NCBI GenBank assembly: GCA_001515955.1
Contig: LOES01000189.1
Location: 1-18,478 of the forward strand
Source of the DNA: Clostridia bacterium BRH_c25
GTDB taxonomy: Bacteria > Bacillota_A > Clostridia > Lutisporales > Lutisporaceae
Direction: 5' to 3'
Length of the DNA stretch: 18,478 nucleotides
Position numbers and translations under genes: made by a program. The notes beneath the pieces are model-generated. The model was not told where the DNA came from. It did no database searches and saw nothing but the letters and a program-made list of their open reading frames with translations. This document shows, one piece after another, positions 1,520-18,418 of this stretch; the stretch's first letter is position 1; each line of letters opens with the position of its first letter.

Positions 1520-2539
1520 ATGGAGTACAGAGAAGTTTTAGAAAAAGCAAAAACCTTGATTGGAGCAAGGTGCAGGATCTGCCGTGAATGTAATGGCGTA
1601 GTATGCAGGGGAGAGGTGCCCGGAATGGGTGGGAAAGGCAGCGGCAGCAGCTTTACCAGGAATTTTGCAAAGCTGAATGACATAAAGCTTAACATGGATA
1701 CAATATATGATTATAAGGAAGTGGATACGACGGTTGAGCTTTTTGGCAAGAGCTTCAGCTTTCCGATATTTGCCGCTCCTATTGGAGGTTTGTATCAGCA
1801 ATATGGAGAGGCATTGAATGACGAAGAATACAGCCATGCGATTGTAGCCGGCTGTAAGAATGCCGGTACCGCAGGCTTTACAGGTGATGGAGTAAAAGAG
1901 GAGCATTATGCTTTGCCTATAAAGGCCATTTCCGGTGTTGGCGGTTGGGGAATACCGACAATAAAGCCCTGGAAGAAGGATGAAGTTATAGCAAAGGTTA
2001 AAATGGCCGCGGAGATAGGAACTTTGGCTGTGGCTATGGATATTGATGCCGCCGGCTTAGCTGTTCTGGCTGCTGCGGGCAAGCCTGTAAGCCCGAAATC
2101 CGTTGAGGAAATAAGGGAAATAGTGTCCAGCACAAAGCTGCCATTTATAATAAAGGGCATAATGACTGCGACCGGAGCAATAAAAGCTGTTGAAGCGGGT
2201 GCTTATGGCATAGTGGTATCCAACCATGGTGGCAGGGTGTTTGACCATACTCCTGCAACGGTGGAGGTACTCCAGGAAATATATAAGGCAGTAGGTGGGA
2301 AAATAAAAATATTCATCGACGGCGGCATAAGAACAGGAATTGATGTTATGAAGGTGCTTGCTCTTGGCGCTGATGCGGTGCTTATTGGAAGACCTTACGG
2401 AGTTGCAGCCTACGGCGGAGGTGCAGAGGGTGTGGAGCTTTATACACGGAAGATAGGCTCTGAACTGAAGGATGCTATGATAATGACCGGCTGCAGCACG
2501 TTGAAGGACATAGATGAAAGAGTGATATATAAGTCGTAG
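1520..2539 (+). CDS. FMN-dependent alpha-hydroxy-acid oxidase/dehydrogenase (LldD/glycolate oxidase family)
   Basis: A cytoplasmic TIM-barrel flavoenzyme expected to oxidise a 2-hydroxy acid such as lactate; the exact substrate cannot be read from the sequence. Family landmarks in this 339-residue protein are APIGG at 86-90 (flavin contact), Lys212 in IIKG, the catalytic SNHGGR at 234-239 (His236 as base, Arg239 for the carboxylate), and the phosphate-binding DGGIRTG at 267-273 followed by IGRP. The N terminus carries Cys18-x2-Cys21-x2-Cys24-x4-Cys29, absent from classical glycolate oxidases, which may hold a metal or iron-sulfur centre. The frame extends upstream to 1445, but AGGAGG at 1508-1513, 6 nt before the ATG at 1520, fixes the start. 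The gene stands alone, and its stop codon lies inside hairpin A of element R1, which should terminate it. Confidence 0.85.
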   Translation: MEYREVLEKAKTLIGARCRICRECNGVVCRGEVPGMGGKGSGSSFTRNFAKLNDIKLNMDTIYDYKEVDTTVELFGKSFSFPIFAAPIGGLYQQYGEALNDEEYSHAIVAGCKNAGTAGFTGDGVKEEHYALPIKAISGVGGWGIPTIKPWKKDEVIAKVKMAAEIGTLAVAMDIDAAGLAVLAAAGKPVSPKSVEEIREIVSSTKLPFIIKGIMTATGAIKAVEAGAYGIVVSNHGGRVFDHTPATVEVLQEIYKAVGGKIKIFIDGGIRTGIDVMKVLALGADAVLIGRPYGVAAYGGGAEGVELYTRKIGSELKDAMIMTGCSTLKDIDERVIYKS

Positions 2540-2567
2540 AAGAATGCGACACAGTCGCATTTTTCTA
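2537..2567 (+). terminator. Intrinsic terminator of the alpha-hydroxy-acid oxidase gene (hairpin A of R1)
   Basis: A 14-bp stem (2537-2550 with 2554-2567, one G-T pair) closes on the loop ACA. Its core is AATGCGAC/GTCGCATT, and the 3' arm contains a run of five T. The stem begins at the TAG stop codon. The same core hairpin recurs at 7361-7385, where it does not follow a gene, so it probably belongs to the repeat element and was co-opted here. Confidence 0.7.
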
Positions 2568-2685
2568 CAGTCACTAGTCGCTGGTCACTAGTCTCTAGCT
2601 TTTAGGGTATTCCTTACAGGCATGAAAGCTCAGCCTTCGAAGACCAGCCCTAATCTAGCGACTAGCGACTCGTGACTAGTGACTG

Positions 2686-2710
2686 AATAAGATTGCTTCG
2701 CAATCTTATT
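2686..2710 (-). terminator. Bidirectional hairpin B of R1, likely terminator of the minus-strand operon
   Basis: A perfect 11-bp stem, AATAAGATTGC (2686-2696) with GCAATCTTATT (2700-2710), closes on the loop TTC. It begins 1 nt beyond the stop of the minus-strand gene at 2712. Read on the minus strand, the U-tract is short and lies partly inside the stem. The same hairpin core recurs at the right end of R3 (7505-7535). Confidence 0.55.
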
Positions 2711-2711
2711 A

Positions 2712-3299
2712 TTATATGCTTCTCAATTCATAGAACACCAGGTATTTTTCTCCCAGAGGCTTGTGGTCAATATCGGTATTATATGCAAAGCTCCATTCTG
2801 CTATTATTGACTTTCCCTCACTCATGGGCCTTCGATAATAGGACTTAATGCGATTGACATAATCAAGCAGAATATTAGATTCTTCTGCTGAAAGGAAGCT
2901 CTGATCCCCGAAGTATTCCGTAACTCCATTCTCAAGTACAAGGGTGATATTCTTGCGTCCATGGGTGACAAGATTCCATAGGTCTTTATCCACAGCTTCT
3001 ATCACAGTTCTGCTGCTTTTTATATCTATTACCCCGCTTTTGTCTGCTATAAAGTAGGGGTAATAGATAACCATACCGCTATCCTCATACTTTTCCAGTA
3101 GAGAGCTTCCTTTAGCTGCAGCCTCTTCTGCAGTAACACCGACGGCTCTGGGAAGATTCAGGTCATCGCCGTTTTTTACAGCAACTCTTATAGTCCACAG
3201 CATGTTGCTGTCCAGTGTTACTTCCCGGGAGTACCTCTCCCAGGGTACAGTGGGAATATTTATATCTTTAAGCTCATAAAACCCCATTAATTTATTCAA
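2712..3299 (-). CDS. Conserved-looking protein of unknown function, downstream of dgt
   Basis: I do not recognise this protein (195 residues from the TTG). It is soluble, rich in charged and aromatic residues, with no signal peptide or membrane segment. It reads like an alternating alpha/beta domain: repeated short strands (WTIRVAV, MVIYYPYFI, NITLVLENG) and helices (AEEAAAKGSSLLEKY, EESNILLDYVNRIKSYY), and a C terminus ending in YLVFYEL. The frame extends to 3368, but that part runs through a hairpin and towards repeat R4. The AGGGG at 3309-3313 is 9 nt before the TTG at 3299; the ATG at 3287 has no good site of its own and is the alternative start. It follows dgt by 105 nt on the same strand with no strong terminator between, so co-transcription is likely. 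Confidence 0.65.
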   Translation of the reverse strand: MNKLMGFYELKDINIPTVPWERYSREVTLDSNMLWTIRVAVKNGDDLNLPRAVGVTAEEAAAKGSSLLEKYEDSGMVIYYPYFIADKSGVIDIKSSRTVIEAVDKDLWNLVTHGRKNITLVLENGVTEYFGDQSFLSAEESNILLDYVNRIKSYYRRPMSEGKSIIAEWSFAYNTDIDHKPLGEKYLVFYELRSI

Positions 3300-3334
3300 A
3301 TCAAAAAACCCCTTTCTCCAACGCCATACTAAAT

Positions 3335-3351
3335 AGTGCGCTTCCCGCACT
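3335..3351. other. Short GC-rich hairpin ahead of the unknown gene
   Basis: AGTGCG (3335-3340) pairs with CGCACT (3346-3351) around a 5-nt loop. It lies in the spacer between dgt and the downstream gene, about 35 nt before that gene's TTG start. No T-run follows it on the minus strand, so it is more likely a processing or leader hairpin than a terminator. It may also be chance. Confidence 0.3.
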
Positions 3352-3362
3352 CCCCTGAAACC

Positions 3363-3397
3363 TCGCATCTCGTATCTATACCCTTAAGGAATACCCA
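3363..3397. repeat. Rearranged fragment of the heptad-arm element, R4
   Basis: Two 7-nt units, TCGCATC (3363-3369) and TCGTATC (3370-3376), are followed by CCCTTAAGGAATACCCA. This matches the unusual right-arm units of R2 (TCGCATC, TCGCATC, TCGTATC) and the conserved core end CCATAAGGAATACC. Relative to R2, arm and core fragment are in swapped order on the same strand. The remainder of the element is absent, so this is a remnant or a deletion product. Confidence 0.6.
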
Positions 3398-3404
3398 AGA
3401 TAAG

Positions 3405-4688
3405 TTATATCTTCGTAAATGGACCGAAAAGCTTGTCGTAGGTTTCCAGGGCTGAACGGTCTGTCATTTCTGCAATGTAATCACAAAGCACCCTGGCCGG
3501 AGTTGTCACATATCCCCCATAGGCACAGGTGCTGCTATTGATATTCTCAAGGCTTTCCTTTGAAGTACCGGAAGCATCAATGAACTTCTTATAGATCCGG
3601 CCTGGCATTTGTTTGGGGTTAGCCCAGTAGGTGTTGTATATCTCACTCACTATTTTCCTTGCTTTAACATCCATTATAGTTGTCATTGGGCTGTTGTAAA
3701 CATGATCAGTGACGAATTTCTTAAGGCTTCCAAAGGCTTTCTCATGCTTGCCCAGCCGGATGATCTTATTTCCCCGGACGCTCCTGTCGGTGAAGCTTCT
3801 TACTTGTTCAAGGGTAGTGATATTGTTGGTATCAATGACGTTCCAGGAGCTTTCCACCAGGTCCAGCACAAGGGTGTTTATGAGGGGGCTGATTCCGCTG
3901 CCGGGTTGAAGCCCGAAGTTCTCATACACCAGCTCATCAAAGGATTTCTGAGTCAGAAGGCCTTCATCAATGCTTTCCTTTATTAGCCTTGCATTTATAC
4001 CGTCATCCAGGTCATGGCATACATAAGCAAGGGTATCGGAAAGTGCTACTGCCTGGCCTTCAAGGCTTGATGGCTCTGAGGGCTTCAGGCTCTCATAAAT
4101 GCCTTCGGTATGGTCCCTGGTATGCTTGAGGATTCCTTCTCTTACCTCCCAGGTAAGATTAAGGCCGCAGTTATCCGTTCCATACTTTTGCTCGATAATA
4201 TCAACAACTCTGACACTGTTTTCATTGTGAAAAAAGCCATGTTCATTTTTAAGCTGATCGGACAAAAGCTCTTCTACAGCATGGCCAAAGGGGGTATGGC
4301 CCAGGTCGTGTCCTAAAGCTATAGCTTCAGTCAAATCCTCATTCAAGCCCAGTGAGCGGGCTATACCTCTGGCAATCTGGGAAACCTCAAGGCTGTGAGT
4401 CATTCTTGTCCTGTAGAAATCACCCTCATGGTTTACGAAGACCTGTGTTTTATACATGAGACGTCTAAAGGCACTGGAATGTATTATCCTGTCCCTGTCT
4501 CTCTGAAAGTCGCTTCTGGCTTCAAAGTTGCTGTTCTTTTCGCTGCAATTCCTTCTGCTTCCTTCTTTAGGCTTCTTTGTTGCATAGGGAGCCAGATAAA
4601 GGTCCTGTATAGCCTGGATCTTTTCCTTGTATCTGGGCGGTGTGCCCAATTCTTTATATATCTTATCTCTGATTTCGTTCAAATCCAT
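3405..4688 (-). CDS. dgt: Deoxyguanosinetriphosphate triphosphohydrolase-like dNTPase (HD domain)
   Basis: It is expected to cleave dNTPs to deoxynucleoside and triphosphate in the cytoplasm, limiting dNTP pools. In this 427-residue protein the HD-domain metal ligands are visible: His98 (in RMTHSLEV), His127-Asp128 (in GHDLGHTPFGH) and Asp218 (in ALSDTLAY). RDRDRIIHSSAFRRL, typical of the family, lies at 63-77, and HDLDDGI follows at 225-231. Length is usual for the Dgt-like subfamily. The frame extends to a GTG at 4718 inside repeat R2, but the GAGGAG before the ATG at 4688 (9-nt spacing) fixes the start. A minus-strand promoter at 4841-4870 predicts that the whole R2 element lies in this gene's 5' untranslated leader. 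It is bracketed by R2 upstream and R4 downstream. Confidence 0.9.
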   Translation of the reverse strand: MDLNEIRDKIYKELGTPPRYKEKIQAIQDLYLAPYATKKPKEGSRRNCSEKNSNFEARSDFQRDRDRIIHSSAFRRLMYKTQVFVNHEGDFYRTRMTHSLEVSQIARGIARSLGLNEDLTEAIALGHDLGHTPFGHAVEELLSDQLKNEHGFFHNENSVRVVDIIEQKYGTDNCGLNLTWEVREGILKHTRDHTEGIYESLKPSEPSSLEGQAVALSDTLAYVCHDLDDGINARLIKESIDEGLLTQKSFDELVYENFGLQPGSGISPLINTLVLDLVESSWNVIDTNNITTLEQVRSFTDRSVRGNKIIRLGKHEKAFGSLKKFVTDHVYNSPMTTIMDVKARKIVSEIYNTYWANPKQMPGRIYKKFIDASGTSKESLENINSSTCAYGGYVTTPARVLCDYIAEMTDRSALETYDKLFGPFTKI

Positions 4689-4713
4689 AATATATTTCTC
4701 CTCAAATTTTTCA

Positions 4714-4837
4714 GTCACTAGTCTCTAGTCTCCAGTCACTAGATTGGGGCAGGGCTCCGAAGACTGAGCTAAGCCTATGCCCATAAGGAATACCTGGAAA
4801 TCTAGAGACTAGTATCTCGCATCTCGCATCTCGTATC
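4714..4837. repeat. Intergenic heptad-arm element, copy R2
   Basis: The left arm is GTCACTA, GTCTCTA, GTCTCCA, GTCACTA (4714-4741). The core is 4742-4802, containing GGGCTCCGAAGACTGAGC and CCCATAAGGAATACC. The right arm is TAGAGAC, TAGTATC, TCGCATC, TCGCATC, TCGTATC (4803-4837). The core has the orientation of R3 and is inverted relative to R1. Hairpins A and B are missing. The outer right-arm units have drifted but keep the 7-nt register, and pairing between the arms is best next to the core. The element starts 26 nt upstream of the dgt start codon. Confidence 0.85.
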
Positions 4838-4840
4838 TCT

Positions 4841-4870
4841 ATTATATACAAGTTGAGGCAATCTTGGCAA
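4841..4870 (-). promoter_or_regulatory. Predicted sigma-A promoter of dgt
   Basis: Read on the minus strand, TTGCCA (4865-4870) is followed by an 18-nt spacer and a perfect TATAAT (4841-4846). Transcription would begin near 4834, so the leader would carry R2 in full before the dgt ribosome site. The plus-strand promoter of the gene at 5000 is not clear in the remaining 4871-4999. Confidence 0.6.
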
Positions 4871-4999
4871 TTATATGTATTTTGGCAATAGCAGAATTTA
4901 ATAGACTTTGGAGGTAAAAATAAAACTGGCTGGTATACAGTGAAATCGCTTATTTGAACAAGGATTGGAGAATAAAATGAAATACAGGGAGGTGCAGAT

Positions 5000-5887
5000 A
5001 TGCAAGAGGTGAAAAGCCTGACAGGTCGGATGAAGCTTAAGAGCTATTTTCAGCTATTAAGACCCAAGCAGTGGATAAAGAACCTATTCATATTTGCTGC
5101 TTTGATGTTTTCAAAAAGCATAGACAAACCGCCATACATATTGATTTCTTTTTATGCTTTTATTTGCTTCTGCATTACGTCCTCCACAGTCTATATATTC
5201 AATGATCTGCTGGATATAGAAAAAGACCGGAGACATCCAAGAAAGAGAAAACGCCCTTTAGCTGCAGGAGTTATAAGCAGGAGAGAAGCACAAATACTTA
5301 TAAGCTTTATGCTCCCTGCAGCAGTTGTATTTTCCTTTATGCTGAACTACAGCTTCGGTCTTATTGTCATGGCCTATCTGATTAATAACCTATTGTATAC
5401 ACTATATGTGAAAAACCTTGTTATCCTTGATGTAATGTCTATTGCCATGGGCTTCATACTGAGAGTTGCAGGAGGTGCGGTAGCCATAGGGGTGCTTATA
5501 TCTCCATGGCTGCTTTTATGCACCTTCCTGCTGGCTTTGTTCCTGGGCTTCAGCAAGAGACGGAATGAGCTTCTGATACTGCAGGAGGATGCCCAAAGTC
5601 ACAGAAGTATTCTTGAGCATTACTCCCTGGACTTTATTGATAATATGCTTTCGATTGTAACGGCATCTACGTTGATATCCTACAGCCTTTATACGTTTTT
5701 TTCCAGTGACGACAGGTATTCTATGGTGACGATACTATTCGTCCTATATGGAATTTTCAGGTACCAATATATAATATACAATAAAAAACTCGGTGAAAGT
5801 CCTGAGGAAATCGTGCTGACCGACAGGCCACTATTTATTAACATAATGCTTTGGATATTGACAAGTATAGTAATCTTATACAAGTAG
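5000..5887 (+). CDS. UbiA-family polyprenyl-phosphate phosphoribosyltransferase (decaprenyl-phosphate phosphoribosyltransferase-like)
   Basis: A polytopic membrane enzyme, about eight or nine helices in 295 residues, resembling the DPPR synthases that move phosphoribose from PRPP to a polyprenyl phosphate. Family signs are the N-terminal LRPKQWIKNLF (20-30), the metal and diphosphate motif NDLLDIEKDRRHP (68-80, Asp69, Asp72, Asp76), a second polar loop with LYVKNLVILDV, FSKRRNEL near 184, and PEEIVLTDRPL near 268-278. In actinobacteria the product feeds arabinan synthesis; in a clostridium the acceptor and end product are unknown, so only the reaction class is claimed. GGAGGTG at 4988-4994, 5 nt before the ATG, fixes the start. 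The 3' end overlaps the convergent glycosyltransferase gene by 12 bp. Confidence 0.8.
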   Translation: MQEVKSLTGRMKLKSYFQLLRPKQWIKNLFIFAALMFSKSIDKPPYILISFYAFICFCITSSTVYIFNDLLDIEKDRRHPRKRKRPLAAGVISRREAQILISFMLPAAVVFSFMLNYSFGLIVMAYLINNLLYTLYVKNLVILDVMSIAMGFILRVAGGAVAIGVLISPWLLLCTFLLALFLGFSKRRNELLILQEDAQSHRSILEHYSLDFIDNMLSIVTASTLISYSLYTFFSSDDRYSMVTILFVLYGIFRYQYIIYNKKLGESPEEIVLTDRPLFINIMLWILTSIVILYK

Positions 5888-7273
5888 CTGCGGGTCTGTA
5901 GGTGAAGAAATACGGGAGTTCGGTGTAAGGATTCCTGCAAGCAGGATGCCTATGGCAATGCATAAAAAGGGTTCGGCAGCTATTCTGTATCTGGGAGCAA
6001 AGTAGAATATTTGGACGATAAGGTTTATATATAAAAAATTTCCGATTATCCATGCAGGTTCGCAGAACAGTACATGGAAGGACATTGCTGTAATAAGCCT
6101 GAGGATGAAAAATGCCAATAGGATAAGGGCAGTCCTCCACAAGAATGCAAAAGACATTTGAGGAAGCTTGTAAAGGCCTTCCAGGGTGTCTTTTTTTACT
6201 ATGCCCATCTTTATCAGACTGCCGTATAGGGGGAGCTTATAGGTACGGTCCAGATGGTTTTGAGCTTCGGATATGTGAGGATCTCCATGATAAAGGAAAA
6301 GCCTCTGCTTAAGCCTTGAAAGCTTTATTTCTTTAGGAATATTCCTGATCATGTAAGAAAGGCCTTCACCATAGCCCGTTTCGTATAGCCTGTTAATATC
6401 GGTGTGTGGCTTTACATCCACCCATTGTCCGTTGGCAAGGGGATTGTGAGCTATGTAGAAATTGATAGGGCCGTTGGTATCCACAAGTATAAAGCGTCCT
6501 GTAACAGTATAGTTCCTTATGATCCAAGGTGATAATACCAGAAGCATGACTATGACAGTCAAGGCTCCATCCAAGGCAGCAACCTTTAGAGCCTTTCTCA
6601 TATCGAGCCTTTTCGCTATTGTGTACAGCAGTGCGAAAACAAGCATAACACCGGGAAGAAGAAGCAGCACAGGCCGTGTAAGGTTTCCGATGCCGAGAAA
6701 AAATGAGTACAGCAGCAGGTACCGGATCCGAACATAAACCTTGTGCAGGCCAAGCTTCCCTGATAGTTCATGCTTGAAATACTTCAGGGCAAAGTAAACA
6801 ACTGCAAGATAAATTGTAATAAATACAGTCTCAACGTATAAATGGTTGGTATATACTACCATTCTTGGATTCAAGGCCATGAGGAGACCGGCAATAAGCC
6901 CGGCTTCCTTGTGAAAATCGCTGTAGCTTTCCAAGGCTTCGCTGGCAATGCTGTAGCAGAGCAGACAGGATGCAGTGGAGAAGCCTGCTTGAATTACCCT
7001 CATTACCAGAAAATACTGTGATGTACCGAAAAACCTATATATAAAACCAGAAAGAAAGATGTATAAGGGAGGCCAATAGGCATACCTGGCCCAATGCTCA
7101 CCGAATTGGTGGCCATAGTATTCGCCGCCCATTATATTAAGGGCATAGTGGTACATGCTCCAGGCATCTATTTTGATTTCAAAAGGGGTGTATATGACGA
7201 AGCGGAGTCTTAAGTATAGTGCCAGGGAGAATATAATGATAATGTATAATACTGTTTTTCTTTTGAGGTCCAA
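5876..7273 (-). CDS. GT-C membrane glycosyltransferase, ArnT/PMT-like (GT39/GT83 type)
   Basis: A multi-spanning membrane protein of 465 residues, probably using a polyprenyl-phosphate sugar as donor on the outer face of the membrane. The first helix (8-24) is followed by an extracytoplasmic loop with Asp36 in KIDAW, the position of the catalytic or metal Asp in GT-C enzymes, and by YWPPLYIFLSGFIYRFFG (66-83), typical of the PMT_2 family. A large loop with NFYIAHNPLANGQW follows the central helices; two more helices end the protein. The start is TTG at 7273 with AAGGAAG 7 nt upstream; no ATG nearby is better. Overlap with the convergent phosphoribosyltransferase gene suggests, but does not prove, a shared lipid-linked glycan role. 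Donor and acceptor are unknown. Confidence 0.8.
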   Translation of the reverse strand: MDLKRKTVLYIIIIFSLALYLRLRFVIYTPFEIKIDAWSMYHYALNIMGGEYYGHQFGEHWARYAYWPPLYIFLSGFIYRFFGTSQYFLVMRVIQAGFSTASCLLCYSIASEALESYSDFHKEAGLIAGLLMALNPRMVVYTNHLYVETVFITIYLAVVYFALKYFKHELSGKLGLHKVYVRIRYLLLYSFFLGIGNLTRPVLLLLPGVMLVFALLYTIAKRLDMRKALKVAALDGALTVIVMLLVLSPWIIRNYTVTGRFILVDTNGPINFYIAHNPLANGQWVDVKPHTDINRLYETGYGEGLSYMIRNIPKEIKLSRLKQRLFLYHGDPHISEAQNHLDRTYKLPLYGSLIKMGIVKKDTLEGLYKLPQMSFAFLWRTALILLAFFILRLITAMSFHVLFCEPAWIIGNFLYINLIVQIFYFAPRYRIAAEPFLCIAIGILLAGILTPNSRISSPTDPQLLV

Positions 7274-7305
7274 AGATATTCTTCCTTTCTGTATTGATTC
7301 TCATG

Positions 7306-7332
7306 ATTATAGTATATACATTAGCTTGTTAA
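7306..7332 (-). promoter_or_regulatory. Possible promoter of the glycosyltransferase gene
   Basis: On the minus strand, TTAACA (7327-7332) precedes a perfect TATAAT (7306-7311) with a short 15-nt spacer. It is 33 nt upstream of the TTG start. The spacing is below the optimum, so confidence is low. It places element R3 directly upstream of this promoter. Confidence 0.35.
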
Positions 7333-7360
7333 TAAATAATGAGTTTATGAATATAAATAT

Positions 7361-7535
7361 AAGAATGCGACGTTGTCGCATTCTTAAGTCACTGGTCGCT
7401 AGACTCTAGTCGCTAGATTAGGGCAAGGCTTCGAAGACTGAGCTTTGTGCAGTACCCATAAGGAATACCAGGGATCTAGAGACTAGCGACTCGTGACTAG
7501 CGACTTGTAGAAGATTGCTTCGCAATCTTCTACAA
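7361..7535. repeat. Intergenic heptad-arm element, copy R3
   Basis: Parts in order: perfect 11-bp hairpin A (7361-7371 with 7375-7385, loop GTT); left arm GTCACTG, GTCGCTA, GACTCTA, GTCGCTA (7388-7415); core 7416-7476 with GGCTTCGAAGACTGAGCT and CCATAAGGAATACC; right arm TAGAGAC, TAGCGAC, TCGTGAC, TAGCGAC (7477-7504); perfect 14-bp hairpin B (7505-7518 with 7522-7535, loop TTC). The arms pair at 21 of 28 positions. Hairpins A and B are in the same order as in R1 but the core is inverted. It lies between divergent genes and their predicted promoters, so these hairpins are not gene terminators here. Confidence 0.85.
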
Positions 7536-7550
7536 CATTCACCATTTTTA

Positions 7551-7579
7551 TTGACATAAATGATATAAATGTCTATACT
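7551..7579 (+). promoter_or_regulatory. Strong sigma-A promoter of the gntR-family gene
   Basis: TTGACA (7551-7556), a 17-nt spacer and TATACT (7574-7579) form a near-consensus promoter. Transcription should start about 7586, giving a leader of roughly 140 nt before the ATG at 7727. The -35 box begins 16 nt after the end of element R3. Confidence 0.75.
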
Positions 7580-7627
7580 GTACATATATGGTATGAACGG
7601 TATGGACAGTATGCACACTATGAACGG
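7574..7627 (+). repeat. Six 9-nt iterated units overlapping the -10 and start of the gntR promoter
   Basis: The stretch reads in 9-nt steps as TATACTGTA, CATATATGG, TATGAACGG, TATGGACAG, TATGCACAC, TATGAACGG. The third and sixth units are identical; most share TATG at the same phase. The array starts in the -10 box and runs through the predicted transcription start. This is a natural place for repressor binding, perhaps autoregulation by the GntR protein, which is an inference. The remaining leader (7628-7710) shows nothing I can name. Confidence 0.6.
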
Positions 7628-7726
7628 AATACACAATTTCAACGCTTTTACTGTGCTTAGTATGGCATAACAGTCAGGACGGAATCTGTCTCGCATTCAG
7701 CTTCCACATAGGTGAGGTGTATATAT

Positions 7727-8235: not shown

Positions 8236-9837
8236 ATGGTGAAACGGCTTATTACCAGCAAGCACAATATAAAACCCAAAAAATATAAGACAATAAAGGA
8301 AATTGCGGCAACAGCACATTTAAGAGCGGATAATTCCAGGAAGATTATTTCCCCTGTCAAAGATAAAGAGGAGTGGTTCAGATATGAGCTTGCAGGCAAT
8401 GGGGATATAGTATTCAGGGAACTGTTTATTGGAGGCAATGAAGAGTTGGACGCCATACTTATATATATGTATGGCAGTATAGATAAGAACATGCTTAATG
8501 CATATGTTATCAAACCTCTGATGAGCTTCAAGGGAGGCAAAGAAAAGAGCATTGAAGGCAGTATATCTTATAAGAGTATAATGGATAGCTGTTTAAGTGT
8601 AGGAACAATAAAGGCAGTAACGGATAAAGACCTTGCTAAAAATGAGATGTTTGAAGGCAAAGTTATTTTGCTAGTGAATAGTATTGACCAGATTATCATA
8701 ATGGAAGTAGCCGGGGGGAAAGCAAGACAGGTAACTGAACCGGAAAGTGAGAAGACCCTGAGAGGTACAAAGGAAGGTTTCATAGAGGACATATGGAACA
8801 ATGTGGCCGTTATAAGGAAGACACTGCCTGACCCGAGCCTAAAAGTTGAAGTATCTAAAGTTGGAAGGAGAACAAAGACCAGCCTTGCTGTCGTATATTT
8901 GAAGAGTCTGGCGGATGACAAGCTGGTAAAAGAGGTAAAAAGCCGTATAAAAAAGATAGATATAGATGGAGTGTTGGCCAATGGATATATAGAAGAATTC
9001 ATTGAAGACAACCCTTACTCTCCTTTTCCGCAGACTCAAGGAACAGAGAAGCCTGATAAGGTTGTTGCCGCCCTGCTTGAAGGAAGGATTGCAATCTTTC
9101 TGGACAGAACGCCTTATGTACTTTTGGTGCCTGCTCAGCTTATTCAGTTTTTCCAAGCACCGGAGGATTATTACGAGCGTCCCTATATGGGTACATATAT
9201 AAGACTTCTGAGAGCTATCGCATTTCTTGTAACGACAAGTGCTGCCCCGGCTTATATTGCGCTGACCTCCTTCCACCCGGAGCTGGTTCCTTTAGAGCTG
9301 CTCCTGAATATTGCCGAGCTTAGGAAACAGGTGCCCTTCCCTCCGGTGGTAGAGGCATTGATAATGGAGTTTGTAATAGAATCACTCCGGGAAGCAGGCT
9401 TGAGACTGCCTACGGCAGTAGCAACAACATTAGGAGTTGTAGGGGGTATAATTCTGGGGGATGCGGCAGTCAGATCAAATCTGGTCAGCCCTGCCATGAT
9501 TATTGTAATAACTATAACAATAATATGCAATTTCATTATACCAAACTACAGCATGTCTCTTGTCATCAGGCTTGTCAGGCTTTATCTTATTCTGCTGGCT
9601 GCCGCTTTTGGAGCTTTCGGGATTACACTGGGCTGGCTGGTAATGATAATACACCTATGCAAATTGGAAAGCTTCGGTGTCCCGTATTTTGCCCCTCTTG
9701 CACCAACCAGATTCAAGGATTTGAAGGATCTGTATGTAAGGGTGCCTATATGGGCAATGAAGGATAGGCCTGATTCAATCCCTGTCAAGGATAAGAAGAG
9801 AACGGTCAATGCAAGGGAGCAAAAAAATGGAAATTAA
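8236..9837 (+). CDS. gerAA: Spore germinant receptor subunit A (GerA family)
   Basis: The A subunit of a GerA-type nutrient receptor in the spore inner membrane; with B and C subunits it senses germinants. The 533-residue length fits the family. Residues 1-280 form the hydrophilic N-terminal domain. The membrane part follows, with EGRIAIFLDRTPYVLLVPA and the conserved EDYYERP near 310, then helices about 325-500, including LRLPTAVATTLGVVGGIILGDAAV and LVSPAMI. The C-terminal tail (500-533) is charged and cytoplasmic. AAGGAG at 8225-8230, 5 nt before the ATG, fixes the start. First gene of the operon, overlapping the next by 11 bp. Family members are normally expressed in the forespore. The symbol is a family name; which paralogue this is, and its germinant, cannot be told. 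Confidence 0.92.
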   Translation: MVKRLITSKHNIKPKKYKTIKEIAATAHLRADNSRKIISPVKDKEEWFRYELAGNGDIVFRELFIGGNEELDAILIYMYGSIDKNMLNAYVIKPLMSFKGGKEKSIEGSISYKSIMDSCLSVGTIKAVTDKDLAKNEMFEGKVILLVNSIDQIIIMEVAGGKARQVTEPESEKTLRGTKEGFIEDIWNNVAVIRKTLPDPSLKVEVSKVGRRTKTSLAVVYLKSLADDKLVKEVKSRIKKIDIDGVLANGYIEEFIEDNPYSPFPQTQGTEKPDKVVAALLEGRIAIFLDRTPYVLLVPAQLIQFFQAPEDYYERPYMGTYIRLLRAIAFLVTTSAAPAYIALTSFHPELVPLELLLNIAELRKQVPFPPVVEALIMEFVIESLREAGLRLPTAVATTLGVVGGIILGDAAVRSNLVSPAMIIVITITIICNFIIPNYSMSLVIRLVRLYLILLAAAFGAFGITLGWLVMIIHLCKLESFGVPYFAPLAPTRFKDLKDLYVRVPIWAMKDRPDSIPVKDKKRTVNAREQKNGN

Positions 9838-10933
9838 AAGCGGATCTAGTATAACAAGCAAACAGCTTATTTTTATTATGATAGGAACTATGCTGGGCTC
9901 CGGTATACTGAGCCTTCCCAGACTTGCGGCAAAGGAGGCCGGGCAGGATGCCTGGCTGGCTGTAATTCTTGGTTCCATGTTTCCCCTTGCTTCACTTTCA
10001 TTAATAAGGCTTCTTTACAAAAAAAATGATGCGGCCAGCTTTGTAGAAATATGCAGAAAGGTTGGTGGCAGGTGGTTGGGAAGCTTGTTTAGCATAATAC
10101 TGGCATTATATTCAGTACTCACAGCTTCAGTTCTTCTCAGGGTTTTCATAGAGGTAATTTCAATGTTCCTTCTCAATGATACACCTATGCTGGCCAAGCT
10201 TGTGTTGATGCTTTCCGTATGTGCATATCTGGCATCTACTAATGCAAAGGTGATAGGAAGATTAAACGAATTTCTTTTTTACGTACTTCTGCCTATAGTA
10301 TTTTTCTCTCTGCCTGCGATTGTCAAAAACTCTGATATACGGAATCTGATGCCCGTACTGAATTTTGAAGTATCGGATTATGCCAGAGCCGCACTGACAA
10401 CGGGTTTTGCCTTCTCGGGGTTTGAGTTGTATATTGTTTTTCATCCCTATGTCTTGAAAGAGAAAGAAGCTTATGGTGCAAGCCTGTATGCCCTCCTGAT
10501 AACCCTTGTTATTTATTTGTATTTTGTTATAGGAGTTATTTCGGTCTTTGGGTCTGAGCTCACACAGAAATTTACATGGCCTACGCTCAGAGTACTTGCA
10601 ACAGCGGAGGTGCCGATACTTGAAAGAATAGAGTTCCTGTTCATACAGGCATGGATAGGTGTATCCTTCAGACCCATCAGCATACAGTATTTTTGTGCAA
10701 GTCATATAATAGCAGAGCTGTTGAAGCTAAAATCCCAGAAGTGGAGTACTTTGGGACTGTTTCCGGTAATGATACTCATAGCGTATTACCCCAAGAACAT
10801 TTTCCAGGTTTTCAAGCTTTCCGATTACGTGGGGCAGATTGCATTGTCAATTGGAATAGCTTTGCCGCTCATACTCATTGTATTCGGAATGTTCACTGTA
10901 AAAAGGAAGGCGGTGAATGATGAAAATGCATAG
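9827..10933 (+). CDS. gerAB: Spore germinant receptor subunit B (GerAB/APC-type transporter fold)
   Basis: An integral membrane protein of 368 residues with about ten helices, related to amino-acid permeases; in GerA receptors this subunit binds the germinant. ITSKQLIFIMIGTMLGSGILSLPR at the N terminus contains the unwound-helix Gly-Ser-Gly typical of the APC fold. Further helices follow to about 360. The frame also offers an ATG at 9809, but AGGGAG at 9814-9819, 7 nt before the ATG at 9827, selects the shorter form. It overlaps the A subunit gene by 11 bp and the C subunit gene by 17 bp, indicating translational coupling. The germinant cannot be inferred. Confidence 0.9.
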   Translation: MEIKSGSSITSKQLIFIMIGTMLGSGILSLPRLAAKEAGQDAWLAVILGSMFPLASLSLIRLLYKKNDAASFVEICRKVGGRWLGSLFSIILALYSVLTASVLLRVFIEVISMFLLNDTPMLAKLVLMLSVCAYLASTNAKVIGRLNEFLFYVLLPIVFFSLPAIVKNSDIRNLMPVLNFEVSDYARAALTTGFAFSGFELYIVFHPYVLKEKEAYGASLYALLITLVIYLYFVIGVISVFGSELTQKFTWPTLRVLATAEVPILERIEFLFIQAWIGVSFRPISIQYFCASHIIAELLKLKSQKWSTLGLFPVMILIAYYPKNIFQVFKLSDYVGQIALSIGIALPLILIVFGMFTVKRKAVNDENA

Positions 10934-12053
10934 AAAATTAATACGCTTGTCTGCTGCCTTACTATGTCTGATTATGCTCACAGGCTGCTGGGATGCCAAG
11001 GAATTGGATGATTTATCCATACCACTTGTCGTTGCATACGACACAATACTGGAAAAGGAAAAGGAATATCCTGATGACAAGTACCTTGTTACCGTGGGAG
11101 TCCCTGTATTCTATGAGGATGTTGAGAGTAAATTTCATGTAATAGATACCACAGGCCAAATAATTGGAGAAGCAAGAGGCAGGAAGAACACGCAGCTTGG
11201 AGAGCAGGTGATATTCGGGCAACTGCAGGTTCTGCTTTTGGGAGAAGAGCTTGCTAAAAAAGAAAACCTATTGGAAATAACTGATGTAATTGCGAGAAAC
11301 CCCAGGGTAAAGGCTTCAATATTCATTATAATAGTCAAGGGAAGGGCGGTAGATCTTATAAAAAAGCCACCCCACAATTATCCTAATGTGGGAATATATT
11401 TGAAAGCTCTGATGAAGAACAGCAAGGATACGAATTTCTTCCCGTACACGACCTTATTTCGCTTCAACAGAAGCTTGATCAGCTATGAGACAGCGGCTTT
11501 GCTGCCACATGTCATATGCAGGGATGGGGAAATTATGCTGGCAGGCTCATGTCTGGTGAATGAAGGGAAAATATCAGGAGAAATGGGCAGGGAGGAAACA
11601 GAGACAGCAGTCATGTTAAGCGGTATAGAATGTAAGGGAACTCTGTCCTTTGAGGCAAAAAAGGATGGAAAGGTTATTGATGAAGCAACCTTTGAAGGCA
11701 GGAACAGCCGGAAAGTGACTTTGAAAATAATAGAGGGTAAATATGTTTTCAATATACAGATAAAGCTGTCGGGAACAATAGTAGAGCATAAAAAGGAAGT
11801 ACCGATGCAGGATGGCACCGATTTATTAATGGTCTTTCAGGATTCCCTGGAGCAGCACATTAAAAAAAGAGCAGAAGCTCTTGTGGAAAAAACTCAGGAG
11901 GAATTCAAGTTTGATGCCTTGTGCCTTGCTAAGTATATAAAGGCACATACACGGGAAAAGCTTACGAAGGAGGATATCGACAGGATAGTTCAGGAATCTG
12001 AGATTAATGTTGAGGTCAAAGTGCAGATACGGAATGTCGGCGGGAAAATGTAG
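10917..12053 (+). CDS. gerAC: Spore germinant receptor lipoprotein subunit C (Ger(x)C family)
   Basis: The lipid-anchored C subunit of the receptor, on the outer side of the spore inner membrane. In 378 residues, a signal peptide of positively charged (MHRKLIR) and hydrophobic parts ends in the lipobox LTGC, with lipidation at Cys24, followed by WDAKELDDLSI, the usual start of mature GerC proteins. The FxxSLISYETAALLPHV segment near 185-200 and the mixed alpha/beta C-terminal domain also fit. Start: ATG at 10917 or the adjacent ATG at 10920, both served by AAGGAAGG at 10903-10910. It ends the operon. No strong terminator is visible in 12054-12069. Confidence 0.9.
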   Translation: MMKMHRKLIRLSAALLCLIMLTGCWDAKELDDLSIPLVVAYDTILEKEKEYPDDKYLVTVGVPVFYEDVESKFHVIDTTGQIIGEARGRKNTQLGEQVIFGQLQVLLLGEELAKKENLLEITDVIARNPRVKASIFIIIVKGRAVDLIKKPPHNYPNVGIYLKALMKNSKDTNFFPYTTLFRFNRSLISYETAALLPHVICRDGEIMLAGSCLVNEGKISGEMGREETETAVMLSGIECKGTLSFEAKKDGKVIDEATFEGRNSRKVTLKIIEGKYVFNIQIKLSGTIVEHKKEVPMQDGTDLLMVFQDSLEQHIKKRAEALVEKTQEEFKFDALCLAKYIKAHTREKLTKEDIDRIVQESEINVEVKVQIRNVGGKM

Positions 12054-14971: not shown

Positions 14972-15002
14972 TATGTGTATTGATTTTAATGAATATAATG
15001 GC

Positions 15003-15240
15003 ATTGAAGAGGACAGTAGTAAAGGAAGCAAATTATAGAGAGACAGTCGCCTGGTGAAAGATTGTCATTTGCCGTTTTACGAAAATCACCTTGGAGCTGG
15101 AGGGCTGAATCAAGTAAGCCTTTTCGCAGGCATGCGTTACATGCATTGAGTGATGCACTGATTGATTACAGTTGTGCATAACCTGGGTGGTACCGCGGTA
15201 TAATATCGTCCCTTTGGCTTTGGCTGAAGGGGCTTTTTAT
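15003..15240 (+). promoter_or_regulatory. T-box riboswitch leader of ileS, isoleucine specifier AUC
   Basis: The conserved T-box sequence GGGTGGTACCGCGG lies at 15185-15198. The stem I start GAAGAGGACAGTAG and the AGAGAG bulge region are both present upstream. The likely specifier is ATC at 15085-15087 in the segment GAAAATCACC, which matches isoleucine and the downstream gene. Uncharged tRNA-Ile should pair its 3' end with the antiterminator bulge and let transcription continue; charged tRNA should favour the terminator at 15208-15238. The specifier call rests on position and match to the gene, since I could not fold the RNA. Confidence 0.92.
15208..15238 (+). terminator. T-box-controlled attenuator of ileS
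   Basis: GTCCCTT (15208-15214) pairs with AAGGGGC (15227-15233, one T-G pair), followed by TTTTT (15234-15238). The left arm also belongs to the alternative antiterminator that includes the T-box sequence. Confidence 0.85.
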
Positions 15241-15310
15241 TTTTCCAGAGCCCTAACCCGTACCTACACCCATGTACAAAGTATATATATTCTTAGAAAG
15301 GATGTTTTAT

Positions 15311-18300
15311 ATGGACAAATTCAAATTTTTATCCGACAAGAGAGTGGCAGAAAATGAAAAAAGCATATCGGAATATTGGAAGGAGATAGATATCCTCAAA
15401 AAGAGCATAGAAACAAGAGCGGACAAGAAGCCGTTCATATTCTATGAGGGACCTCCAACTGCCAACGGCAGACCCGGCATACACCATGTAATAGCCAGAA
15501 CATTGAAGGATACGGTGTGCCGCTATAAAACAATGAAGGGCTATCAGGTCAAGAGGAAGGCAGGCTGGGACACTCACGGGCTTCCTGTTGAGATTGAGGT
15601 TGAAAAGGAGCTTAAGATATCAGGAAAACAGGATATAGAAAAGTACGGCATAAAGGAATTTAACCAGAAATGCCGTGAGTCTGTATTCAAGTACGTAGGA
15701 CAGTGGCAGGATATGACCGAAAAAATGGCTTATCTGATAGACATGGAGCACCCCTATATAACCTATGACAACAATTATATTGAGACAATCTGGTGGATAT
15801 TGGACAAATTCAACAAGGAAGGTTATATCTATGAAGGACACAAGATATCCCCTTACTGCCCAAGATGCGGTACAGGACTTGCGACCCATGAGGTAGCTCA
15901 AGGCTATAAGGAAATAAAGACAACTACGGTAATAGTTAAATTCAAGAGAAAAGGCACCGATGAATACTTCCTGGTGTGGACAACTACACCATGGACACTG
16001 CCTTCCAACGTGGCGCTTACAGTGAACCCAAAGGAAACATACCTTAAGGTAAAACAGAAGGATGAAATATACTATTTAGAAAAGACATTGGCCAATAAGG
16101 TGCTGGGAGAAGACTTTGAGGTGCTTCAGGAATTAAAAGGCACAGAGCTGGAGCATATGGAATACGAGCAGCTGATGCCCTTTGTAGACCCTGAAAAGAA
16201 AGCCTTCTTTGTAACCCTGGCTGATTATGTAACTACTGAGGATGGAACAGGCATAGTCCATACAGCTCCCGCCTTCGGCGAAGACGACTACAACACAGGA
16301 AGAAGATATGACCTTCCGGTATTGCAGCCCGTCAATGAAGCAGGCAAATTCACAGCTACCCCATGGGAAGGGCAGTTTGTAATAGATGCGGACCCTGAGA
16401 TAATAAAGTGGCTGGCAATAGAAGGCAAGCTTTTTAAGAAGGAAAAGATAGACCACAACTATCCGCACTGCTGGAGATGCAAGACTCCTTTGCTTTATTA
16501 CGCAAAACCAAGCTGGTACATCGAAATGACAAAGCTCAGGGATAATCTTGTGGCTAACAATAATGAAGTAAATTGGTTTCCGGATTATGTAGGAGAGAAG
16601 CGCTTTGGCAACTGGCTTGAAAACGTGAACGACTGGGCCCTTTCCAGAAACAGATACTGGGGTACGCCTCTCAACATATGGAGATGCGAGTGCGGACACT
16701 TTGACTCCATAGGCTCCAGAAAAGAGCTGGTTGAGAAGTCAATGGAAAAAATAGACGAGAGTATTGATATGCACAGGCCTTATGTGGATGAGGTTCATAT
16801 AAGGTGTGAGAAATGCGGCGGCACCATGACAAGAGTAAAGGAAGTCATAGACTGCTGGTTTGACAGCGGAGCCATGCCCTTCGCACAGCATCACTATCCT
16901 TTTGAGAACAAGGAGAACTTTGATGAACTGTTCCCTGCTGACTATATCTGCGAAGCTATAGACCAGACAAGAGGCTGGTTCTATTCGCTGATTGCGATAT
17001 CAACCTTTGTAATGGGGACATCTCCGTACAAGAATGTACTTGTATGCGGACATCTGGTAGACAAGGAAGGCAGGAAGATGTCAAAATCCCTTGGAAATAC
17101 CGTAGACCCCTTCGAAATGTTCGATAAGTGCGGTGCTGATGCTTTAAGATGGTATATGATGTATGTATCTCCGGTATGGACTACCACCAAGTTTGACGAG
17201 GAAGGCCTGAAGGAGGTTCTCAGCAAGTTCTTCGGAACACTTAAGAATGTTTATGCCTTCTTTGCACTGTATGCAAATACCGACAGCATAGATCCCAAGG
17301 ATTTCTTTGTGGAGTACAGTGAGCGTCCCGAGCTTGACCGCTGGATGCTTTCCAAGTACAACAATCTTGTAAGGGAAGTTAATGCGGAGCTTGATATATA
17401 TGACCTTACAAAGGCAGTAAGAAAGATACAGTATTTTATAAATGAAGACCTTTCCAACTGGTATATAAGACGCTCCAGAAGAAGGTTCTGGGAAACAGAG
17501 CTTACAGAAGACAAGAAAGCGGTTTACAACACCACCTATGAGGTATTGGTAGGAGTATCAAAGCTGATTGCTCCATTTGCCCCGTACATTTCAGAGGAAA
17601 TATACAGGAGCCTCACAGGAGAGCTTTCGGTGCATGTGGCTTATTTCCCTGAAACAAATAAAAGCCTCATCGATGACAAGCTGGAAGAAAGAATGGACCT
17701 GGTCAGGAGTCTGGTAGGCCTGGGCAGAGCTTCAAGGGAGCAGGTCAGGATAAAGGTTCGTCAGCCGATACAGAAGGTATTCATAGACGCAAAATATGAA
17801 GAGCTGATATCCTATCTGATACCGCTTATACAGGAAGAGCTTAATGTCAAGGAAGTAATATTTGAAAAAGACCTCAACAGATACATGAACTTCAGCCTGA
17901 AGCCCAACTACAAATTTGCCGGCTCGATACTTGGGGCAAAGATAAAAACCTTCGCAAAGCTACTGCAGGAAATGGATGCAGCAGTATATGCACCGAAGCT
18001 GGAAGCAGGGGAGACAGTCAAGGTTGACCTTGAGGGAGAGACATTGGAGATAAACAAAGATTACGTAATAACCAGCATAGCAGCCAAAGAAGGCTTTACA
18101 GTGACAACAGAGAACAACCTTTTTGTAATACTTGATACTACCCTTACAAAAGAGCTTATAGAAGAGGGCTATGCAAGGGAATTCATCTCCAAGGTACAGC
18201 AGATGAGAAAGAACAACAATTATGAGATGATGGACAAAATAAACATATATTTCGACGGAGACGATGAAATAGCAAATGCAGTTTCCGCATTCAAGGACTA

Positions 18301-18418
18301 CATCATGCAGGAGACTCTGGCTGAAAAAGTGGAAAGAGTCACAGACAAGAGCTTTGAGGCTCAGGACCTGAACGGACATGAGACAGGAATGAAGCTTGAA
18401 AAGAAACCCGGCGTATAG
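15311..18418 (+). CDS. ileS: Isoleucyl-tRNA synthetase, type 2 (IleRS2), with GIHH signature
   Basis: Charges tRNA-Ile in the cytoplasm. The 1035-residue length and the PPTANGRPGIHHV form mark the type 2, eukaryote-like IleRS class. The class I signature is Gly56-Ile57-His58-His59 instead of HxGH. Asp72 onward in the catalytic half is normal, and KMSKS is intact at 589-593. The editing domain has TTTPWTLPSN near 225 and HTAPAFGEDD near 316-326. Cysteine pairs that may bind zinc are at 183/186, 387/390, 459/461 and 499/502. The anticodon-binding and C-terminal domains are complete. The frame starts at 15272, but the ATG at 15311 has GAAAGG 9 nt upstream and begins the usual MDKFKFLSD. Expression is controlled by the Ile T-box; a terminator overlaps the stop. 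Confidence 0.95.
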   Translation: MDKFKFLSDKRVAENEKSISEYWKEIDILKKSIETRADKKPFIFYEGPPTANGRPGIHHVIARTLKDTVCRYKTMKGYQVKRKAGWDTHGLPVEIEVEKELKISGKQDIEKYGIKEFNQKCRESVFKYVGQWQDMTEKMAYLIDMEHPYITYDNNYIETIWWILDKFNKEGYIYEGHKISPYCPRCGTGLATHEVAQGYKEIKTTTVIVKFKRKGTDEYFLVWTTTPWTLPSNVALTVNPKETYLKVKQKDEIYYLEKTLANKVLGEDFEVLQELKGTELEHMEYEQLMPFVDPEKKAFFVTLADYVTTEDGTGIVHTAPAFGEDDYNTGRRYDLPVLQPVNEAGKFTATPWEGQFVIDADPEIIKWLAIEGKLFKKEKIDHNYPHCWRCKTPLLYYAKPSWYIEMTKLRDNLVANNNEVNWFPDYVGEKRFGNWLENVNDWALSRNRYWGTPLNIWRCECGHFDSIGSRKELVEKSMEKIDESIDMHRPYVDEVHIRCEKCGGTMTRVKEVIDCWFDSGAMPFAQHHYPFENKENFDELFPADYICEAIDQTRGWFYSLIAISTFVMGTSPYKNVLVCGHLVDKEGRKMSKSLGNTVDPFEMFDKCGADALRWYMMYVSPVWTTTKFDEEGLKEVLSKFFGTLKNVYAFFALYANTDSIDPKDFFVEYSERPELDRWMLSKYNNLVREVNAELDIYDLTKAVRKIQYFINEDLSNWYIRRSRRRFWETELTEDKKAVYNTTYEVLVGVSKLIAPFAPYISEEIYRSLTGELSVHVAYFPETNKSLIDDKLEERMDLVRSLVGLGRASREQVRIKVRQPIQKVFIDAKYEELISYLIPLIQEELNVKEVIFEKDLNRYMNFSLKPNYKFAGSILGAKIKTFAKLLQEMDAAVYAPKLEAGETVKVDLEGETLEINKDYVITSIAAKEGFTVTTENNLFVILDTTLTKELIEEGYAREFISKVQQMRKNNNYEMMDKINIYFDGDDEIANAVSAFKDYIMQETLAEKVERVTDKSFEAQDLNGHETGMKLEKKPGV

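Follow-up and report, generated by a model that had tools for sequence, protein, structure and literature searches.

Palindromic elements with heptad arms around a conserved core in a Clostridia-like bacterium: a candidate family of small interspersed repeats

What kind of entity is a short palindromic element that occurs three times within 5 kb, each time with tandem 7-nt units on both sides of a related core? The question arises from the window, i.e., the whole stretch of 18,478 nt analysed here, an 18.5-kb contig with a GC-content of 0.43 from a spore-forming, uncultured Clostridia-like bacterium. The original prediction had proposed either a non-autonomous mobile element or a structured RNA. 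Based on three copies of 126-175 nt and one fragment on this single contig, we lean towards a family of small palindromic DNA repeats which are interspersed and non-autonomous, similar to MITEs or BOX elements, and rate this reading as slightly better than an even bet.

Architecture of the elements and the fragment

Each element consists of heptad arms in a 7-nt register which flank a core of 56-59 nt (Table 1). In the orientation of the core, every copy reads four AGTCNCT-type heptads, the core and then heptads of the inverse type. The register is kept, as originally claimed, throughout the six arms: at a lag of 7, 16-19 of 23 positions match, at lags of 6 and 8 only 0-2. The best 30-nt stretches of 60 shuffled windows contained on average 14.6 lag-7 matches with a maximum of 17, and three arms (16, 17 and 17 matches) taken singly lie inside this range. 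By their number and their arrangement as three inverted pairs, however, the six arms are hardly a product of chance. Tandem 7-nt units, the hallmark of heptamer short-sequence repeats, are present in all six arms, and terminal inverted repeats as demanded of a MITE were found as well, with 17-25 of 30 arm positions being complementary within a copy. The 3′ arm of copy 2 is composite, with two TAGNGAC-type units being followed by CTCGCAT-type heptads. Between the two arms located beside hairpin alpha (copies 1 and 3), 28 of 30 positions are the same, in comparison to 17-25 of 30 for the remaining 14 pairs of arms.

Table 1. Positions of the elements, their parts and the fragment within the window
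Feature	Position	Strand	Basis
Copy 1, whole with outer hairpins; minus-strand core; occupies the gap of a convergent gene pair	2536..2710	-	sequence, profile search, fold
Copy 1, outer hairpin beta; apex ATGCGAC-ACA-GTCGCAT, foot GTAGAA/TTCTAC	2536..2568	.	sequence, fold
Copy 1, heptad arm (3′ arm in core orientation)	2569..2598	.	
Copy 1, core, 56 nt	2599..2654	-	
Copy 1, heptad arm (5′ arm in core orientation)	2655..2684	.	
Copy 1, outer hairpin alpha; apex ATTGC-TTC-GCAAT, foot AATAAG/CTTATT	2686..2710	.	sequence, fold
Rearranged fragment; CTCGYAT-type heptads, then core 3′ half (3376-3395)	3362..3395	+	sequence
Copy 2, without outer hairpins; flanked by a promoter-like site on the minus strand (4870-4841) and the HD-domain gene which this site would serve	4713..4838	+	
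Copy 2, 5′ heptad arm	4713..4742	.	
Copy 2, core, 59 nt	4743..4801	+	
Copy 2, 3′ arm; heptads switch from TAGNGAC to CTCGCAT type	4802..4838	.	
Copy 3, whole with outer hairpins; divergent intergenic region	7360..7534	+	sequence, profile search, fold
Copy 3, outer hairpin beta; apex ATGCGAC-GTT-GTCGCAT, foot TAAG/CTTA	7360..7386	.	fold
Copy 3, 5′ heptad arm	7387..7416	.	
Copy 3, core, 59 nt	7417..7475	+	
Copy 3, 3′ heptad arm	7476..7505	.	
Copy 3, outer hairpin alpha; apex ATTGC-TTC-GCAAT, foot GTAGAAG/CTTCTAC	7506..7534	.	sequence, fold

The core had been described as conserved, and with pairwise identities of 71, 72 and 78% among the three copies this description holds. According to the profile search it lies on the minus strand in copy 1 and on the plus strand in copies 2 and 3. 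The elements as first described are thus real, but the strand of the core of copy 1 had been overlooked. Similarly, the two core strings given at first are narrower than stated, as GGCTTCGAAGACTGAGC is exact in copy 3 only and CCATAAGGAATACC in copies 2 and 3 only. The two halves of the core are also represented by TAAGGAATACC, with four exact sites in the window (0.36 expected with one mismatch; four reached in one of 200 shuffles), and GAAGRCTGAGC, likewise with four exact sites (0.62 expected with one mismatch; four reached in three of 200 shuffles), one of which is located outside the elements at position 329.

An nhmmer search with a profile of the three copies returned 2690-2564 (minus), 4706-4837 (plus) and 7380-7509 (plus), each with E ≤ 1e-40; the reverse-strand matches at the same three places were weak and came about via the arms. 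As the profile was built from these very copies, the search checks their coordinates and not their independence. The fragment matches the 3′ half of the copy 2 core at 18 of 20 positions, and none of 200 shuffled windows contained an equally good match. Its heptads stand directly upstream of the core 3′ half and are of the type found in the outer part of copy 2's 3′ arm. Because of this position of the heptads the fragment is regarded as a rearranged remnant. Together, profile search and fragment match bear out the three full copies and one fragment within 5 kb that had been predicted, with the amendment that the order of parts in the fragment is rearranged.

Outer hairpins, predicted folds and CTAG content

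Two short outer hairpins, perfect or nearly so (one G-T pair in copy 1), flank copies 1 and 3, whereas copy 2 is devoid of them. Counted from the loop outward, their pairing survives three double changes (pair 12 of beta, pairs 9 and 11 of alpha). On the plus strand both copies display the same order of beta, arm, core, arm and alpha, despite the opposite directions of their cores. When the outer segments, each comprising three outer heptads and a further 40 nt, were aligned, the summed score was 56.5 with the core regarded as flipped and 43.0 with the core regarded as fixed. The close agreement of the two arms beside alpha points in the same direction. A core that has flipped inside fixed flanks between copies 1 and 3 is therefore favoured but unproven, the comparison being one of two copies. 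The hairpin feet, with TAAG at the 5′ and GTAGAA at the 3′ side, track the orientation of the core in both hairpin-bearing copies, which counts against a simple flip.

With the outer hairpins included, the predicted folds of copy 1 (z -10.5) and copy 3 (z -8.6) are strong, and it is conceivable that the arms, once transcribed, form a long stem which is flanked by the outer hairpins and acts on the neighbouring genes. The double changes in the hairpins would fit such a structured RNA or leader, and so would the location of copy 2 downstream of a promoter-like site as well as the beta hairpin of copy 3, which is terminator-like on the minus strand. However, any inverted repeat folds well, so that strong folds are to be expected of copies 1 and 3, and copy 2 reached a z of only -2.2, with three of 200 shuffles being equally good. 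Watson-Crick pairs between the arms of one copy number 25, 17 and 23 of 30 in copies 1, 2 and 3, respectively; when arms of different copies are combined (six combinations), they number 19-28 of 30. As the pairing within copies is no better than between them, there is no sign of the arms changing together. The best core folds differ among the copies as well (three cores, two strands; z +0.6 to -2.7): one of the six is better than most shuffles (minus-core strand of copy 1, P 0.007) and another yielded P 0.053, five of the six thus having P ≥ 0.05. Terminator-like sites are no more frequent in the scanned region than in shuffles (4 vs. 4.1), and besides beta of copy 3 none of the outer hairpins was called, including both of copy 1.

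No Rfam family matches the elements, the sole match in the window above the gathering threshold being a T-box at 14995-15216, and a relaxed search of 2500-7600 yielded four matches, all far under the gathering scores (E 2.1-6.1). The comparison with Rfam, which had been suggested as a check, thus brought up no known RNA family. As for the proposed structured RNA itself, with neither arm covariation nor a common core fold nor an Rfam match among the three copies compared, few as they are for a firm test, a conserved RNA structure is not supported, and we consider an RNA or leader function of the elements quite unlikely.

The most unusual property of the elements is their concentration of CTAG, which was absent from the first reading of this DNA. 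CTAG is rare in many bacteria. Its rarity is stated for E. coli and Salmonella in PMC5337935. Outside the elements, the window contains three CTAG in about 18 kb, or, counting both strands, 6 in comparison to 43.1 expected from trinucleotides (ratio 0.14), which makes it the most depleted of all 256 tetranucleotides. The second most depleted one there is GCGC with a ratio of 0.40. Of the 20 CTAG sites of the window, 17 are located inside the three elements (489 nt as counted). This richness may reflect a function, or it may reflect young copies residing in DNA that is slowly losing CTAG.

One possible function is the binding of a protein. The heptads would then be phased CTAG sites with the core as a second site, and the array would serve regulation or chromosome organisation instead of mobility; with a 7-nt unit, every third unit is back on the same helix face after two turns. 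Such CTAG arrays might be occupied by a TrpR-like protein. It fits a binding array that CTAG, scarce elsewhere, is kept in the arms at a spacing of 7 or 14 nt, that all three copies have the innermost CTAG in either arm, with a span across the core of 60, 63 and 63 nt, and that the heptad motif is kept though the arms pair no better within copies than between them. Yet gene context and orientation are inconsistent, no candidate protein was identified, and the abundance of CTAG might just mirror the youth of the copies, as several irregular heptads are irregular at CTAG itself (CTGG, CTCG, CCAG). A binding array without mobility hence appears unlikely to us.

Gene context, distribution and origin

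Copy 1 is located between convergent genes (an FMN-dehydrogenase gene and the gene at 2712-3368) and copies 2 and 3 between divergent ones (copy 2 between the HD-domain gene and a UbiA gene, copy 3 between the gene at 5876-7273 and the GntR gene). The neighbouring genes are unrelated, and no gene or orientation is common to the three contexts. The original statement that the elements carry no coding sequence needs a qualification, as five mechanically called open reading frames (ORFs) of at least 80 amino acids overlap them (2057-2560, 3405-4718, 4395-4721, 7155-7409 and 7418-7696). We take these overlaps as spurious: an ATG outside copy 2, at 4689, is the probable true start of ORF 3405-4718, and a protein search with ORF 7418-7696, which crosses copy 3 and is the one of the five that was searched, returned only the identical protein of the window itself, for which, unexpectedly, the longest contig is recorded as 5410 bases. 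The elements thus seem to be non-coding.

The promoter-like site next to copy 2 scores 11/12 on the minus strand, and from this predicted promoter copy 2 would lie in the 5′ leader of the HD-domain (dGTPase-like) gene. A second promoter-like site (7551-7579) is located outside copy 3. The regional scan called 17 promoter-like sites where 12.9 were expected; such sites, like the terminator-like ones, are no more than suggestions. Between the second site and a GntR-family gene at 7712 there is also a 9-nt tandem repeat (7583-7645, TATGNACRG type, about 4-5 units), which could be the operator of this gene.

Spore germination genes of the GerA type occupy 8236-12053, with GerA (PF03323) and GerAC being present and ORF 9809-10933 reading like a GerAB-type transporter. 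The nearest relatives of the GerA-type protein share 80-84% identity, the only named one being from "Clostridia bacterium", and a more distant relative is labelled Pseudomonadota. The T-box leader (138 bits) is an ordinary one directly upstream of the isoleucyl-tRNA synthetase gene (15272-18418), the product of which shares 69% identity with its counterpart in Acetoanaerobium noterae, the top match within the plasmid collection only. ORFs 7-981 and 2712-3368 have no Pfam match. Neither a transposase family nor a TnpA-REP gene was found among the ten window proteins scanned (of 44 listed ORFs).

Further copies were searched for in several collections. The core pattern, which recovers all three copies of the window, gave five matches in 84,980 species genomes (one per species, contigs of at least 3,000 bases), none of them with heptads, and we read these five as chance matches. 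Among the 59 relatives of genome G001 a single one matched, at a place already included in these five. In the viral collection the core pattern had no match, and the same was true for further patterns covering the core, arm-core joints and hairpins; applied to the window, two of these each recover two of three copies, another one both alpha hairpins and yet another one of the two beta hairpins. The zero result of an arm-core-arm pattern in that collection is uninformative, as this pattern recovers none of the three copies. A looser arm pattern, which recovers copy 1 only, matched 0 of 387, 0 of 392 and 0 of 398 genomes from three phyla other than that of the window; these are weak negatives. 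Copy 3 compared with plasmid and phage collections yielded 24-30 nt matches to arm or core in two plasmid and six phage records (E 0.5-7). The Acetoanaerobium match among these appears to fall in a thymidylate kinase-like gene. The same place was the best match (E 0.0027) of a DNA search of six genomes or records, four of which had a match at E ≤ 10. In the Acetoanaerobium record a CTAG-array pattern with one mismatch allowed gave 12 scattered matches, in comparison to 0 for the reversed pattern, and none was array-like.

Heptads alone were found more readily. A pattern of three TAGNGAC units matched 24 stretches of the viral collection (20 distinct contexts, GC 0.28-0.68), and its reversed control (TCAGNGA type) was even commoner with 117. 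As heptads are frequent in unrelated DNA and the core was not found there, the arms represent a widespread sequence type and the core, as searched, does not. One may hence ask whether the elements arose passively, by slippage which expanded arrays around an old hairpin and by segmental duplication into three copies, with nothing being mobile or selected. The over-representation of heptamers in bacteria, ascribed to polymerase slippage (PMC4692102; PMC4679880, in the parts seen), would be in line with such an origin. Slippage, however, does not create a common core in both orientations between unrelated genes, inverse heptads occurred within 200 nt in only one of the 20 distinct viral contexts, and the heptads of the elements carry CTAG in DNA which is otherwise poor in it. 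We therefore regard a purely passive expansion as very unlikely.

The mobile element of the original prediction is compatible with the data and is the best reading, as the unit is repeated, occurs with both core orientations and stands in varied gene contexts. The conservation of the core next to unrelated genes, the missing Rfam match and the concentration of CTAG are further points in its favour. Target duplications, which had been proposed as a check, were not convincing at any of seven boundary choices: the only candidate is a 4-nt TATA, and 592 of 2000 random places display a duplication of 4 nt or more. As no target duplication was found, the element is not called a MITE here. Besides this, the absence of a transposase family from the ten proteins scanned, of any locus outside the window and of a credible copy of the exact core in the 84,980 species genomes argues against a mobile element.

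If the elements are small mobile repeats nevertheless, a trans-acting enzyme would copy or insert them, with core and arms as its recognition sequence. The arms would evolve via slippage and exchange of heptads with the register being preserved, and recombination between the inverted arms might flip the core within the outer flanks. Effects on neighbours would then be a by-product of position, copy 2 lying in a 5′ leader, copy 1 in a convergent spacer and copy 3 in upstream DNA. A bolder version, which we hold to be a long shot, is a new class of palindromic element with arrays of CTAG, otherwise avoided in the window, in exact 7-nt phase on either side of an oriented core. These arrays would be the binding or crossover sites of a dedicated protein, by which the element is moved or its core inverted between the fixed outer hairpins in the manner of a small DNA switch. 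Bacterial heptamer repeats are widespread and poorly understood; in the present elements they make up the arms on both sides, and the conserved core ties them to an entity that may move. The enrichment of CTAG offers a concrete handle, as it may point to a protein or repair process recognising this tetranucleotide. If the core flips, the elements would in addition report naturally on recombination between short inverted arrays.

Comparison with known systems

MITEs are short (<300 bp), non-coding and present in several copies per genome. Among small palindromic repeats with tandem units, BOX carries boxB modules of about 45 nt, in contrast to the 7-nt units found here in both arms. Streptococci carry such small palindromic, probably parasitic repeats, for example BOX and RUP (PMC3049150; PMC2229807). 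BOX, RUP and SPRITE of Streptococcus pneumoniae resemble our elements in being small intergenic palindromic repeats of a Firmicute with predicted stem-loops, BOX being also modular with tandem units; they are thought to be parasitic and non-autonomous, and they are enriched between convergent genes (PMC3049150). Unlike the present elements, for which no duplication was found, BOX and RUP have termini similar to a resident IS and target duplications, and the excerpt describes no CTAG array for BOX, RUP or SPRITE (PMC3049150).

REP and REPIN sequences with their TnpA-REP transposase (the subject of PMC8266576 and PMC3116915) are a second point of comparison. They too consist of paired palindromes in intergenic DNA. 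They differ in that TnpA-REP was not found among the scanned proteins of the window and in that copy 2 lacks outer hairpins. The GTAG at the foot of two of the outer hairpins may resemble the foot of a REP.

The heptads had been said to fit no family that could be named, and for the core-bearing element as a whole this stands, as it remained unmatched in the searches. Cyanobacterial heptamer repeats are named STRR. As arrays, though, heptanucleotides are known and form an over-represented class: in most genomes examined they are the most abundant category of 5-11 nt repeats, according to a 2007 study cited by PMC4679880 and PMC4692102, which ascribe this abundance to the length of DNA contacting the polymerase and to slippage. 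The bacterial heptamer repeats TAACTGA (PMC4679880) and GGGAATC/GGGGATT (PMC4692102) are likewise tandem 7-nt units in mostly intergenic positions, and inverted pairs of heptamer arrays are mentioned for Xanthomonas and Nostoc (PMC4692102). These are plain arrays, however, and a conserved core between inverse arrays is not described in the excerpts of either paper (PMC4692102; PMC4679880). A complementary heptad stem is also known, namely P6b of the Nostoc trnL group I intron, where the strands consist of complementary 7-nt repeats with a loop at the tip and vary by whole units (PMC4476775). It differs from the elements in occupying one intron site instead of being interspersed, in its motifs (TDNGATT or NNTGAGT) and, as far as the excerpt describes it, in having no conserved core of the kind found here (PMC4476775). 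No intron family of Rfam matches the window, which separates the arms from such a P6b stem.

In the literature searched, which mostly excludes subscription papers, no element came up in which inverse heptad arrays enclose a conserved core, and the papers listed for strings of the element or its heptads were on other subjects, as judged by title. The element is thus probably undescribed so far and perhaps restricted to its lineage, and its closest filing is that of a small palindromic interspersed repeat.
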